From positions 1 to 36,212 of the forward strand of contig JAFWYQ010000096.1 of assembly GCA_017517605.1 (NCBI GenBank): DNA of 36,212 nt. The letters are read 5' to 3'. Both the position numbers and the translations under genes were made by a program. Of the stretch, positions 22,801-27,512 are shown in pieces. Source of the stretch: Bacteroidaceae bacterium (GTDB lineage: Bacteria; Bacteroidota; Bacteroidia; Bacteroidales; Bacteroidaceae). Every line of letters starts with the position of its first letter. Position 1 is the stretch's first letter. Under the pieces are notes generated by a model. It was not told where the DNA came from. It saw only the letters and a list, made by a program, of their open reading frames with translations, and did no database searches.

Positions 22801-22838
22801 AAAAGTTCCTGTCATTGAAAAATGAAGGGAACTTTTTT
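22801..22838 (+). terminator. Rho-independent terminator after the ribosomal trio
   Basis: AAAAGTTCC pairs with GGAACTTTT around an inner stem TCATT-GAAA-AATGA, followed by T residues to 22838. The T tract overlaps the -33 box of the ftsY promoter. Confidence 0.88.
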
Positions 22839-22893: not shown

Positions 22894-23853
22894 ATGGGAT
22901 TTTTTAGTTTCTTTTCAAAAGAGAAAAAGGAGACCTTGGATAAAGGTTTGTCGAAAACCAAAGAGAGCGTTTTTGGTAAGATTGCGCGTGCAATAGCCGG
23001 AAAATCAAAGGTCGACGATGAAGTGTTGGACAATTTGGAAGAGGTGCTGATAACCTCTGATGTGGGTGTTGAGACAACACTGACCATCATCCAACGCATT
23101 GAAGAGCATGTTGCAAAGGATAAATATGTCAATACAGATGAATTGAATACGATTTTGCGCGACGAGATAGCTTCGTTGCTGACCGAAAACAATACAACCG
23201 ACACCGAAGGTTATGAAATACCTGAAGGCAAGAAACCCTATGTAATCATGGTGGTAGGTGTCAATGGAGTAGGCAAGACGACAACTATCGGCAAATTGGC
23301 TTATCAATTCAAGAAAGCAGGTAAAAAAGTATATTTAGGTGCGGCAGACACCTTCCGTGCGGCCGCCGTAGAGCAATTGTGCATTTGGGGCGAACGCGTG
23401 GATGTGCCTGTCGTAAAACAACAGATGGGTTCTGATCCCGCATCAGTGGCTTACGACACACTGAGTTCAGCCGTTGCAGGAGATGCCGACGTTGTGATTA
23501 TAGATACCGCAGGCAGATTACACAACAAGGTAGGCTTGATGAACGAGCTGACCAAGATAAAGAACGTAATGAAGAAAGTGTTGCCCGAAGCCCCGCACGA
23601 AGTGCTTTTGGTATTGGACGGATCAACCGGACAAAACGCTTTTGAGCAAGCAAAGCAATTCACCAAAGCAACAGAAGTAACAGCTATGGCCATTACAAAA
23701 CTGGATGGTACGGCCAAAGGTGGTGTAGTAATCGGCATCAGCGACCAATTCAAGATACCCGTGAAATACATCGGTTTGGGTGAAGGCATGGAAGACTTGC
23801 AGGCATTCAACAAAAAGGAATTCGTGAATTCATTGTTCGGTGAAGAAAAATGA
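22894..23853 (+). CDS. ftsY: Signal recognition particle receptor FtsY
   Basis: From the ATG at 22894 the protein has 319 residues. A short amphipathic N-terminus (MGFFSFFSKEKKE) is followed by the N domain and the SRP-type GTPase: GVNGVGKT at 122-129, DTFRAAAVEQL at 152-162, DTAGRLHNK at 204-212, TKLDGTAKGG at 268-277 and GLGEGMEDL near the end. The long acidic A domain of E. coli FtsY is absent, as is common outside Proteobacteria. It docks SRP-ribosome complexes at the inner membrane. The stop codon overlaps the rimO start (ATGA), so the two are translationally coupled. Confidence 0.97.
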   Translation: MGFFSFFSKEKKETLDKGLSKTKESVFGKIARAIAGKSKVDDEVLDNLEEVLITSDVGVETTLTIIQRIEEHVAKDKYVNTDELNTILRDEIASLLTENNTTDTEGYEIPEGKKPYVIMVVGVNGVGKTTTIGKLAYQFKKAGKKVYLGAADTFRAAAVEQLCIWGERVDVPVVKQQMGSDPASVAYDTLSSAVAGDADVVIIDTAGRLHNKVGLMNELTKIKNVMKKVLPEAPHEVLLVLDGSTGQNAFEQAKQFTKATEVTAMAITKLDGTAKGGVVIGISDQFKIPVKYIGLGEGMEDLQAFNKKEFVNSLFGEEK

Positions 23854-25154
23854 AGCGCAATACCATAGACATCATCACGTTAGGATGCTCGAAGAATCTG
23901 GTGGATTCGGAAAAGCTGATGCGTCAATTGGAAGCAAACGGTTATCACGTGACCCATGACAGTGCTTCGCCCGAAGGGGAAATTGCCGTCATCAACACTT
24001 GTGGATTCATTGGCGACGCGAAAGAGGAATCCATCAATACAATACTGGAGTTTTGCCAAGCCAAAGAGGAAGGTTTGCTCAACAAGGTATATGTTATGGG
24101 GTGTTTGTCCGAACGTTATCTGAAAGAACTTCAGGAGGAAATCCCCCAAGTGGACAAGTTTTACGGAAAGTTCAATTGGGATGACCTTTTGGCAGACTTG
24201 GGCAAAGCATACAAACCCGAATGCCGAATCCAACGCCATCTGACAACGCCTTCGCATTACGCCTATCTGAAAATATCAGAGGGATGCGACCGCAGGTGTG
24301 CATATTGTGCCATCCCCATCATTACAGGCAGACACATTTCCCGTCCGATGGACGAGATTTTGGACGAAGTCCGAATGCTGGCTGCACAGGGGGTAAAAGA
24401 GTTTCAAGTGATAGCTCAGGAATTGACCTATTACGGAGTAGACCTTTACAAAAAACAAACCCTGCCCGAATTGATTGAACGGATGGCAGAAATCCCCGGT
24501 GTTGAATGGATACGTCTGCACTATGCCTATCCGACAAACTTCCCATTGGATTTGCTGAAAGTGATGCGTGAGCACAAAAATGTGTGCAACTATTTGGACA
24601 TCGCCCTGCAACACGTGAGCGATAACATGCTTCAGCGCATGCATCGTCACGTATCCAAGCAAGATACATACAATCTGATAAGCCGTATCCGCGAAGAGGT
24701 ACCCGGCATCCATTTGCGCACAACCTTCATGGTGGGTTTCCCTGGTGAGACAGAAGAGGATTTTGAAGAATTGAAAGAGTTCATCCGTTGGGCCAAATTC
24801 GATAGGATGGGGGCCTTCCCGTACTCTGAGGAGGAAGGGACATATTCTGCCAATCATTATCAAGACGACATACCCGAGGAGACAAAACAACGTCGGTTGG
24901 ATGAAATTATGGCCATCCAGCAAGAGGTGTCTGCCGAGTTGAATATGAAGAAAGTAGGCCAAGTGCTCCCTATAATCATTGATCGCGAGGAGGGAGACTA
25001 TTATGTGGGACGTACTGAATTCGATTCACCGGAAGTAGACCTTGAAGTGTTGATAAGCAAAAGTGAAGGAACACTTGAAGCTGGTTCTTTCTACCACGTG
25101 CAGATAACGGATGCGGCAGAATTCGACTTGTATGCCACTCTTTTAAAGAATTGA
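23850..25154 (+). CDS. rimO: Ribosomal protein S12 methylthiotransferase
   Basis: The 434-residue protein has the three MTTase cysteines C13, C51 and C84 (LGCSKN, INTCGFIG, VMGCLSERY), the radical-SAM triad C146-x3-C150-x2-C153 in GCDRRCAYCAIP, and a C-terminal TRAM-like segment. LGCSKNLVDSE and KISEGCDRRC identify RimO rather than MiaB. It adds a methylthio group to a conserved Asp of ribosomal protein S12 using two iron-sulfur clusters. It overlaps ftsY by four bases and precedes the HU-like gene. Confidence 0.96.
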   Translation: MKRNTIDIITLGCSKNLVDSEKLMRQLEANGYHVTHDSASPEGEIAVINTCGFIGDAKEESINTILEFCQAKEEGLLNKVYVMGCLSERYLKELQEEIPQVDKFYGKFNWDDLLADLGKAYKPECRIQRHLTTPSHYAYLKISEGCDRRCAYCAIPIITGRHISRPMDEILDEVRMLAAQGVKEFQVIAQELTYYGVDLYKKQTLPELIERMAEIPGVEWIRLHYAYPTNFPLDLLKVMREHKNVCNYLDIALQHVSDNMLQRMHRHVSKQDTYNLISRIREEVPGIHLRTTFMVGFPGETEEDFEELKEFIRWAKFDRMGAFPYSEEEGTYSANHYQDDIPEETKQRRLDEIMAIQQEVSAELNMKKVGQVLPIIIDREEGDYYVGRTEFDSPEVDLEVLISKSEGTLEAGSFYHVQITDAAEFDLYATLLKN

Positions 25155-25185: not shown

Positions 25186-25458
25186 TTGAATCATAAAGAA
25201 CTCATAAGTATTTTATCCAAAGATTTAGGCACTTCGGTAAAAGACACTTCCGAAGTTGTCAATCGGATTGTTTCTGCAATGATAGACGAATTGCAGAAGG
25301 GGAATACTGTGAATATTCAAGATTTCGGTACTTTTGAAGTAAAGAAGAAGATGGAGCGCATTTCCGTCATCCCTTCTACCCAACAACGTGTTTTGGTTCC
25401 TCCTAAATTGACACTCACATTCAAGCCTGCAATCTCGCTAAAGGAGAAAGTAAAATAA
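25186..25458 (+). CDS. HU/IHF-like DNA-binding protein
   Basis: The 90-residue protein matches HU in length and layout: N-terminal helices (MNHKELISILSKDLGTSV), NIQDFGTFEVKKK where HU has the GFGTF strand, and TLTFKPAISLKEKVK at the end. The usual RNPxTG arm tip reads STQQRVLVPP, lacking the intercalating Pro of standard HU. The start is TTG at 25186, chosen because a perfect AGGAGG (25171-25176) lies 9 bp upstream; strong Shine-Dalgarno sites are unusual in Bacteroidetes. The gene follows rimO by 31 bp. It may bind DNA with altered specificity; its role is not known. Confidence 0.85.
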   Translation: MNHKELISILSKDLGTSVKDTSEVVNRIVSAMIDELQKGNTVNIQDFGTFEVKKKMERISVIPSTQQRVLVPPKLTLTFKPAISLKEKVK

Positions 25459-25488: not shown

Positions 25489-26346
25489 ATGGCGGATAAA
25501 ATTCAAAAAGAGGGCTTGTGCTCTATCTTGATGAAGGAGAGCACAATGGCAGATACTGAAATTCGCAAAATCCTGGATGCATTTTTCATGCAAATCATGA
25601 AGGGATTGGAAGAAGAACGCTATGTAAAAGTCAAAGGTCTGGGGGTATTCAAGCTGATAGATGTAGAGAGTCGACGGAGCGTGGATGTCAACACCAAGGA
25701 ATATATCGAAATACCCGAACACCGAAAAATCACATTTACACCTGAATCAGCATTAAAAGAGCTGATAAACAAGCCTTTTGCACATTTTGAAACCATAGAA
25801 ATAAAATCCGATGGATTTTTGGGAAAGACACCTTCAAGCATCGAAAAGGAGATGGAAGCTGACCAAATAGACGAAGAGACAGAGGAAAACTATGCGGACA
25901 AAGAAATGGATGTAGCTATGTCAGAAGAAAAGCCAGATACCCCAACCATCGAAGGAAAGGTGAACATCGAAGAATTCACCCAAAAAGAGACACTTATCGA
26001 AGAGCCATTTATCGAAGAAGATATGAATGTAGAGGAGCCATTTACCGAAGAAGAGCCGAATGTAAAAGAAGAACCCATCGAAGAAGAAAATACAGTAAAG
26101 GAAGGTGTCGAAAATCTGCACAAAGAATCCGTTGCCGTAAAGCCCCAAGATACGATTCCTCATCAAGCACCTGTCCGCCTCATTGAGCGCCGTGAAGAAT
26201 TGCGCAAATTGGACAGACAATTGGAAGAGGAGAATAGGAAAAACAAGATATCCCTTACCATCATTTCCATTCTTATGTTTTTGGTTTTACTTTTCGGTCT
26301 ATTATTCATTCTTGCACCTGAGTTTTTAGAACAACTACTTTACTAA
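25489..26346 (+). CDS. HU-like domain protein with acidic linker and C-terminal membrane helix
   Basis: From the ATG at 25489 the protein has 285 residues (a TTG at 25474 is possible). Residues 1-95 are an HU-like domain (MADTEIRKILDAFFMQIMKG, then VKVKGLGVFKL and ITFTPESALKELIN). Residues 100-210 are strongly acidic with repeats such as EEPFIEEDMNVEEPFTEEE. A charged, probably coiled segment (ERREELRKLDRQLEEENR) leads to one membrane helix, about 248-275 (SLTIISILMFLVLLFGLLFI), and a short tail. The layout predicts a tail-anchored inner-membrane protein holding an HU-like domain in the cytoplasm. It lies 30 bp after the small HU-like gene, likely in the same transcript. Function unknown; chromosome-to-membrane attachment is a hypothesis. 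Confidence 0.8.
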   Translation: MADKIQKEGLCSILMKESTMADTEIRKILDAFFMQIMKGLEEERYVKVKGLGVFKLIDVESRRSVDVNTKEYIEIPEHRKITFTPESALKELINKPFAHFETIEIKSDGFLGKTPSSIEKEMEADQIDEETEENYADKEMDVAMSEEKPDTPTIEGKVNIEEFTQKETLIEEPFIEEDMNVEEPFTEEEPNVKEEPIEEENTVKEGVENLHKESVAVKPQDTIPHQAPVRLIERREELRKLDRQLEEENRKNKISLTIISILMFLVLLFGLLFILAPEFLEQLLY

Positions 26347-26443
26347 AAGTACCAAGGAATGTTAACGCAGAGGCGGTGTTTTGAGTATAATTGCAAATAC
26401 TCCTAAAAACTGCATCAATCAGTGCTTTTTTTTCCAAAAATAA

Positions 26444-26475
26444 ATTGCAATAGTTAAGAATAAATGCTACTTTTG
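26444..26475 (+). promoter_or_regulatory. Promoter of the moxR-bat cluster
   Basis: ATTG (26444-26447), 20 bp, TACTTTTG (26468-26475) lies 41 bp before the moxR ATG. The -7 box is exact; the -33 box has one mismatch. Confidence 0.6.
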
Positions 26476-26516
26476 GGCCTCAAAAACCGAAAGTAGAAAA
26501 ATAATATTATAAAATT

Positions 26517-27512
26517 ATGGCAGAAACAATAGATATTCGTGAATTGAACGAACGGATAGAGAGACAAAGTGCATTTGTTACCAATCTGATTGCAGGAATG
26601 GATCAGATTATTGTAGGACAGAAACATTTGGTTGAATCATTGCTCATCGGATTGTTGTCTGATGGACATGTGTTGTTGGAAGGTGTACCCGGTTTGGCAA
26701 AGACATTGGCCATCAAGACACTGGCTTCGCTTGTAGATGCCAAGTATAGCCGCATTCAGTTTACACCCGATTTGCTTCCTGCGGACGTGATAGGAACCAT
26801 GATCTATAGTCAGAAGGAAGAGCATTTTATCGCCAATAAAGGTCCGATTTTTGCAAATTTCGTGTTGGCAGACGAAATCAACCGTGCTCCGGCCAAGGTG
26901 CAAAGTGCCTTGTTGGAAGCTATGCAGGAGCGTCAGGTGACATTGAGCAAGAATACATTCCTTTTGCCCGAACCTTTCTTGGTGTTGGCCACTCAGAATC
27001 CCATTGAGCAAGAGGGTACTTATCCGCTTCCTGAAGCCCAGGTTGACCGTTTTATGCTGAAAGTCATCATTGATTATCCGAAGTTGGAGGAGGAGAAGAG
27101 AATCATCCGACAGAACATTTCGGGCGAAAAGATGGAGGTAAAGCCCAACCTCAAGGCCGAGGACATCATCGAAGCCCGCAAGGTTGTCCGCCAAGTGTAT
27201 CTGGACGAGAAGATCGAGCAATACATCGCTGATATCGTATTTGCCACACGCTATCCTCAGAAATACGACTTGAAGGAGTTGAAGGGATTGATTGCATTCG
27301 GTGGTTCGCCACGTGCCTCCATCAATTTGGCCTTGGCTGCTCGTGCTTATGCCTTCATCAAGCGTCGCGGATACGTAGTGCCTGAAGACGTACGTGCGGT
27401 AGCTCATGATGTGCTCCGTCATCGTATCGGATTGACATACGAGGCAGAGGCAAGCAATGTCACTTCAGACGAAATCGTTAGCAAGATATTGAATAAGGTT
27501 GAGGTGCCTTAA
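26517..27512 (+). CDS. MoxR-family AAA+ ATPase
   Basis: The 331-residue protein has Walker A GVPGLAKT at 56-63, Walker B FVLADE at 115-120 followed by INRAPAKVQSALLEAMQERQ, a sensor motif in VLATQNPIEQEGTYPLPEAQ and the lid domain at the C-terminus. MoxR ATPases act as chaperones that work with von Willebrand A proteins, here the DUF58, BatA and BatB proteins encoded downstream. It is the first gene of the cluster, with its own promoter; the DUF58 gene starts 61 bp after it. Confidence 0.94.
   Translation: MAETIDIRELNERIERQSAFVTNLIAGMDQIIVGQKHLVESLLIGLLSDGHVLLEGVPGLAKTLAIKTLASLVDAKYSRIQFTPDLLPADVIGTMIYSQKEEHFIANKGPIFANFVLADEINRAPAKVQSALLEAMQERQVTLSKNTFLLPEPFLVLATQNPIEQEGTYPLPEAQVDRFMLKVIIDYPKLEEEKRIIRQNISGEKMEVKPNLKAEDIIEARKVVRQVYLDEKIEQYIADIVFATRYPQKYDLKELKGLIAFGGSPRASINLALAARAYAFIKRRGYVVPEDVRAVAHDVLRHRIGLTYEAEASNVTSDEIVSKILNKVEVP

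Follow-up and report, generated by a model that had tools for sequence, protein, structure and literature searches.

Canonical HU and IHF proteins are small and soluble, unlike the product of a gene found on contig JAFWYQ010000096.1 of a Bacteroidaceae bacterium (GCA_017517605.1), in which an HU domain is joined to an acidic stretch and a predicted membrane helix. This raises the question of what an HU domain would be doing at a membrane, and with which partner. To our knowledge, how chromosomes are held or moved relative to the envelope is poorly known in bacteria outside the model phyla. Here we analyze the whole 36,212-nt stretch of that contig (the window) together with corresponding loci of its relatives.

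An HU domain joined to an acidic linker and a predicted membrane helix

The gene lies on the forward strand at 25489–26346, with an open frame from an ATG at 25489 to a stop codon ending at 26346, and encodes 285 residues (the membrane HU protein). A TTG lies 15 nt 5' of this ATG; in most relatives a Met stands about equally far from the HU domain, L021 having none there. Residues 6–94 (25504–25770) match PF00216 with an E-value of 1.3e-17 and 64.2 bits against a cut-off of 22.4, which places the protein in the HU/IHF superfamily, and its best PDB matches by sequence are IHF/HU proteins (E 1.7e-6). The domain is full-length, as in HU/IHF proteins generally, yet the protein departs from a canonical subunit in its length, in its helix and in having Val rather than Pro at the arm tip. 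None of the more specific models reached its cut-off: no HU/IHF equivalog model reached its cut-off on this protein (best IHF-alpha, 42.2 bits vs. 111), HU-HIG (PF18291) narrowly missed its gathering score (24.8 bits vs. 26.2), neither PF18174 nor PF18175 was listed at E 1, and no NCBIfam model reached its cut-off on this protein or on its relatives L026 and L162.

Directly after the HU domain comes the motif NKPFAHFE (25768–25791, residues 94–101), which is absent from the small HU encoded next to it. It is followed by an acidic linker (25813–26232, residues 109–248) with 45 Asp/Glu against 16 Lys/Arg and a net charge of -29. A preliminary description of this DNA had called this part strongly acidic repeats; the acidity was borne out, but a regular repeat structure was rejected, as the part holds a single 15-nt direct repeat in two copies. 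The linker leads to one hydrophobic segment, a predicted transmembrane helix (26245–26316, residues 253–276; Kyte-Doolittle maximum 3.1 in a 19-residue window) with Lys and Arg concentrated on its N side, and the chain stops nine residues later with the tail PEFLEQLLY and the stop codon (26317–26346), at the place where a LysM domain continues in most relatives. A SPOR domain was also sought in the protein, with no match. The layout of HU domain, acidic stretch and single C-terminal helix is thus as first described, and the same layout was found again in proteins of relatives.

Among the 15 PF00216 matches in this genome assembly, which is 80.5% complete, only the membrane HU protein has a hydrophobic stretch above 1.6; the next, L014, is cut by a contig end and reaches 1.5. 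Five other HU paralogues of the same genome (L008, L010, L011, L012 and L015) share the tail ATGGNPL after a Gly-rich stretch, and L005–L007 share another C-terminal end that is helix-turn-helix-like by eye.

Upstream on the same strand lie rimO (23850–25154; Radical_SAM, UPF0004 and TRAM_2 domains), encoding the ribosomal protein S12 methylthiotransferase and serving as our locus marker, and a small, soluble HU of 90 residues (25186–25458; PF00216 E 5.6e-23) that starts with TTG, keeps the arm-tip Pro and is the proposed dimer partner. Downstream, a MoxR-type AAA ATPase (26517–27512, forward strand; AAA_3 E 2.1e-65) is the first gene of a Bat-type cluster, whose BatA/BatB-like genes score below curated cut-offs; it begins 171 nt past the stop of the membrane HU gene, and the gap (26347–26516) is too small for a LysM remnant. 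The same order, ftsY-rimO-HU-HU-AAA-DUF58, is found in Bacteroides finegoldii (WP_007758232.1 and WP_022275144.1) and Parabacteroides distasonis (WP_008778384.1 and WP_009275120.1), where the gene at the equivalent place is named rimO. In both, the second HU protein (419 and 363 residues, respectively) extends past the helix, unlike that of the window, in B. finegoldii with a LysM match that scores 20.1 bits (cut-off 20.9), and in P. distasonis with a stretch that is LysM-like by eye and has no Pfam LysM match. Both records annotate each gene merely as "HU family DNA-binding protein", which hides the helix and the LysM end.

In the window, the Bacteroides-type promoter pattern occurs three times against 0.71 expected, once at 22836 before ftsY and nowhere near the HU genes; sigma-70-type sites (12 vs. 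10.2 in shuffles) and terminators (4 vs. 4.7 in shuffles) occur about as often as in shuffled sequence, and nothing in the window reached an Rfam gathering score. The small HU apparently lacks an ATG start in several species (25186 in the window; L084, L089 and L155), its start reading LNNKEF or LNHKEL instead of MNNKEF, with TTG in the window.

A conserved two-gene module downstream of rimO

A contig scan of close relatives gave one locus only, so we used whole-genome searches and surveyed the DNA 3' of rimO in 144 loci: 12 from the genus (12 of 15 genomes, the other three having no RimO match), 92 from the family (92 further of 101 genomes, seven of the 101 being genus genomes counted in the genus set, with G542 left out for a partial RimO and G030 for no RimO match) and 40 from the order (40 of 178 genomes, taken by best RimO score from the 166 with RimO, omitting those already included). 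For the order set, absence means absence within about 5 kb of rimO, or within the shorter regions of L108 and L110.

Both HU genes lie side by side in 95 of these 144 loci; 88 of the 95 have a C-terminal LysM domain, six (the window included) lack it, and one, L085 (G002), runs off the end of its contig and was assigned by hand. Seven further loci carry a single fused gene with a small-HU-like segment, a membrane-HU-like segment, a helix and LysM. The module is lacking at this place in 39 loci (six genus, one family, 32 order), and in none of the 144 did we find either separate HU, small or membrane, in the absence of the other. By its sequence, the window gene is a shortened member of a conserved module made up of rimO, a small HU and an HU/acidic linker/helix/LysM protein: it has rimO, the small HU directly upstream and the N-x-P-F-x-x-F-E motif, and lacks the C-terminal LysM. 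The preliminary description had proposed a search for its architecture in other Bacteroidetes, and had missed the LysM domain that most of the resulting proteins carry. In the remaining three loci, L162, L166 and L214 (G528, G512 and G511), the post-rimO site is occupied by a helix-LysM protein in which we found no HU domain, and the small HU is missing; there the wall part seems to have outlived the HU part.

The pair is not essential everywhere, since it has been lost in six of the 12 genus loci. Whole-genome searches of these six genomes returned only weak matches of plain-HU size in G003 and G008–G011, and none in G012. One of these loci, L086 (G010), is rearranged, with rimO followed by an opposite-strand gene, glycosidase-like by eye, in place of MoxR.

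Such losses also bear on a reading in which the protein is a membrane-bound regulator, its LysM or membrane part sensing the envelope and its HU pair altering transcription, for instance of the adjacent Bat-type cluster. The pair sits where one would expect such a regulator, flanked by rimO and the MoxR/DUF58/Bat-type genes, both in the window and in the two named relatives; however, rimO still adjoins MoxR in five of the six genus loci without HU genes, the module lies away from rimO in some families (G057, G038), and HU proteins bind DNA with low sequence specificity, all of which leaves this reading, to our minds, very improbable.

A scan of the phylum listed 97 of 296 genomes. Many of these matches are plain HU proteins (profile positions 6–93) or plain LysM proteins (343–396), which we did not count as module members. 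The list includes 31 genomes of f47, a family of another class, for which it names only genomes with a match. Among the 27 best-scoring f47 loci, which we read individually, all 27 have a LysM match in the membrane protein, and in each the gene of a small HU comes immediately before, the two genes touching or sharing a few bases.

Presence and absence of the LysM end

Membrane HU proteins of relatives are mostly about 310–640 residues long, with a linker past the helix and a LysM domain at the C terminus. The best PF01476 match has an E-value of 1.9e-9 (L162). In a Pfam scan of ten proteins, LysM was above its cut-off in L026, L029 and L043, below it in L022 and L044, and unreported in L016, L031 and the short forms L018, L019 and L021; at a threshold of 0.01, only nine of the 25 members of set A1 (whose start sites we chose ourselves) had a Pfam LysM. 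The remaining LysM assignments rest on a profile built from the family itself. A profile of nine such LysM-type C-terminal ends matched 22 solved sequences at E ≤0.01 (best 9.5e-15), most of which are named or known as LysM proteins.

As in the window, the chains of G005, G006 and G007 stop just past the helix with LysM absent, and the match in G002 ends at the same residue as these short forms, with its C-terminal end on another contig. LysM is also lacking in G553 and G527, which belong to another genus whose five other sampled members have it. To place these absences we used a tree of the RimO tail and MoxR, in which MoxR is missing from 33 of 108 rows and 43 of 105 inner branches stay open. 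On it the genus falls into more than one group, and the LysM-less state requires three changes, at least two of them forced by starred branches, so that LysM-less forms occur in two separate groups. The tree is blind to direction, that is, to LysM gain vs. loss; loss appears more likely than gain because the distant f47 also has LysM. Since LysM is absent from the window's clade, contact with the wall would not be required there.

Loss of LysM might instead have left the module unimportant, making the window-clade gene a remnant on its way out. G012 lies inside the window's clade (SH-aLRT 99) and has neither gene, and both are likewise missing from five of the other six genus genomes placed on the tree, the pattern that decay would leave. 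Yet in the four short forms whose sequence can be followed through to its end, the HU domain, the helix and the tail, as APEFLE..Y or APELLE..Y, persist despite a scrambled linker; reading frames stay open, and all five short-form genomes retain the small HU. We therefore regard decay as improbable. We class the window gene as a derived, shortened form of the module instead of a full member.

Predicted membrane topology

One hydrophobic segment was found in 103 of 104 surveyed membrane-protein ORFs, and Lys and Arg are more numerous on the N side of the helix in 82 of the 104, tied in 14 and fewer in eight. Under the positive-inside rule, the side of a membrane helix rich in Lys and Arg is the cytoplasmic one, and this bias would therefore place the HU domain in the cytoplasm and the LysM domain in the periplasm. 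Together with the HU profile, it supports the earlier proposal of a membrane-held HU domain, which we predict to face the cytoplasm. The same description had suggested that the acidic part could mimic DNA, an idea that found no support: across 94 proteins the linker ranges from 43 to 438 residues and from a net charge far below zero up to +3 (median 28% Asp/Glu), and that of the window protein is non-repetitive.

Two unlike HU subunits and their natural fusions

The two HU proteins differ consistently. Small HUs (n = 95) have Pro at the arm tip in 98% of cases, a Lys-rich arm base and a median net charge of +4, whereas membrane HUs (n = 91) have Val (86%) or Ile (8%) at the arm tip, a hydrophobic or acidic arm base and a median net charge of 0 (-1 for the membrane HU of the window). 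The 91 were chosen for a single HU match below 1e-20, and arm-deleted and diverged ones are omitted from these counts. In the window, the arm tips read VIPSTQQ in the small HU and VDVNTKE in the membrane HU, which also lacks a basic arm base. The changed arm tip previously ascribed to the small HU thus holds for its flanks; its Pro is retained, and the larger change is in the membrane HU. Behind the HU domain, the 91 membrane HUs conserve the motif N-x-P-F-x-x-F-E (N 97%, P 85%, F97 86%, F100 87%). A looser form, N-x-P-F/Y-x-x-F/L-E, follows the membrane HU in two classes (25768–25791 in the window; L043, L044, L050 and others), and f47 proteins have a similar stretch by eye. In the f47 loci, both subunits carry the arm-tip Pro, again by eye, and the asymmetry between subunits therefore probably arose later.

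The arm of the membrane HU is deleted in some species (L143, L144 and L147, from G577, G520 and G026). In G026 (L147) the arm-less membrane HU is also fused behind the small HU, which suggests that arm loss preceded fusion there. The post-HU motif is retained in arm-less and fused forms alike.

To examine the fusions, we built models solely from unfused proteins. The first HU of the fused proteins fits the small-HU model in seven of seven cases (7e-27 to 7.5e-5), and the second fits the membrane-HU model clearly in four of seven (L147, L106, L113 and L165), marginally in L170 (0.0076) and weakly in L117 and L130. Pfam reports two PF00216 stretches each in L170, L106, L113 and L147, a sub-threshold HU in L117 and none in L130. 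Within the family, fusion requires two changes on the tree, with one origin still compatible with starred branches; the remaining four fused loci come from two other families. Natural fusions in the expected order, and the lack of any lone separate HU among the 144 loci, argue for the earlier suggestion that the neighboring HU is the dimer partner, joint absence being the weaker evidence of the two because one deletion can remove adjacent genes.

The asymmetry also feeds the chief rival explanation, in which the HU pair is a protein-binding platform at the membrane and DNA is not its ligand. Precedents exist: CCDC81 is a proposed protein-binding platform, and RodZ, a membrane protein that binds MreB, has a DNA-binding-type fold. 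A membrane HU that is neutral and has neither Pro nor a basic arm base, yet strongly conserves its arm sequence and the post-HU motif, the latter even where the arm is deleted, would suit such a platform well. The basic small HU, with its nearly invariant Pro, would not, and neither would the Pro seen in both subunits of the f47 loci read. On balance, we consider a platform unlikely, if less so than the other alternatives, and favor a pair that contacts DNA. The membrane HU itself may not touch DNA, as it has no arm Pro, few basic residues at the arm base and no net positive charge, and has had its arm deleted in places; DNA contact would then fall mainly to the small HU.

Relation to known systems

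The nearest known parallel is the HU-CCDC81_bac_1/bac_2-SPOR proteins of Bacteroidota (PF18174, PF18175 and PF05036), which likewise combine HU-type domains, one hydrophobic helix and a peptidoglycan-binding domain at the C-terminal end. They differ from the window protein in having two HU-type domains per chain, the first much reduced, in ending with SPOR rather than LysM, and in occupying another locus. The general plan of a membrane HU with a wall-binding domain is thus already known from them, and the LysM form looks, by sequence comparison, like a variant apart from that family's models. The genome under study has a tandem HU-CCDC81_bac_1/bac_2-helix-SPOR protein of its own (L077:1324–2499, contig C25), and hence two types of membrane HU that differ in their wall-binding end or have lost it. 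PF18175 was matched in 60 of 79 order genomes, a count of PF18175 alone. We also examined whether the membrane HU is tied more closely to HU-CCDC81_bac_2, and rejected this; the profile comparison gave 93–95% probability over 49–62 HU columns and nothing more specific, with the motif used for it catching only eight of 30 such proteins.

Other systems resemble the module in function only: RodZ, FtsK/SpoIIIE and Noc hold a DNA-binding-type fold or DNA at the membrane, and do so with folds other than HU. Burroughs and colleagues, in a survey of the HU superfamily (Cell Cycle 2017), reportedly predict that HU proteins of Bacteroidetes act in chromosome partition, and may already describe the LysM form. 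In the open-access literature searched, we recognized no paper on an HU-helix-LysM protein; passages of PMC10434189 concern unrelated genes.

A putative link between DNA, membrane and peptidoglycan

We propose that the two adjacent genes produce two unlike HU subunits that would pair as a heterodimer. The small subunit, basic and with a canonical Pro-bearing arm, would provide the main grip on DNA, and the neutral membrane subunit, through its acidic, flexible linker and single helix, would bring the pair to the inner membrane on its cytoplasmic side. For most relatives we envisage a chain that then crosses the membrane to a periplasmic LysM domain, and hence an ancestral device connecting DNA with both inner membrane and peptidoglycan; the window's clade no longer has the LysM part, and membrane anchoring alone would remain there. 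Such a device could serve in nucleoid positioning or segregation. We lean, by a modest degree, toward this reading of a heterodimer that holds DNA to the inner membrane and also, in the majority of relatives, to peptidoglycan. A stronger version, in which the module is a dedicated and ancient chromosome-to-cell-wall tether of Bacteroidota, with one HU subunit gripping DNA, the other anchoring it and LysM seated on peptidoglycan, and with the window's clade cut down to the membrane-only form, we put forward tentatively, as an attractive possibility that we would not yet back.

If the proposal is true, a conserved HU pair with a membrane-spanning subunit and a wall-binding tip would form a physical link between nucleoid and wall, in a system open to testing in gut Bacteroides. 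The natural variants that are LysM-less, HU-less, arm-less or fused reveal which parts are dispensable, and the window's clade would amount to a natural truncation experiment on the tether.
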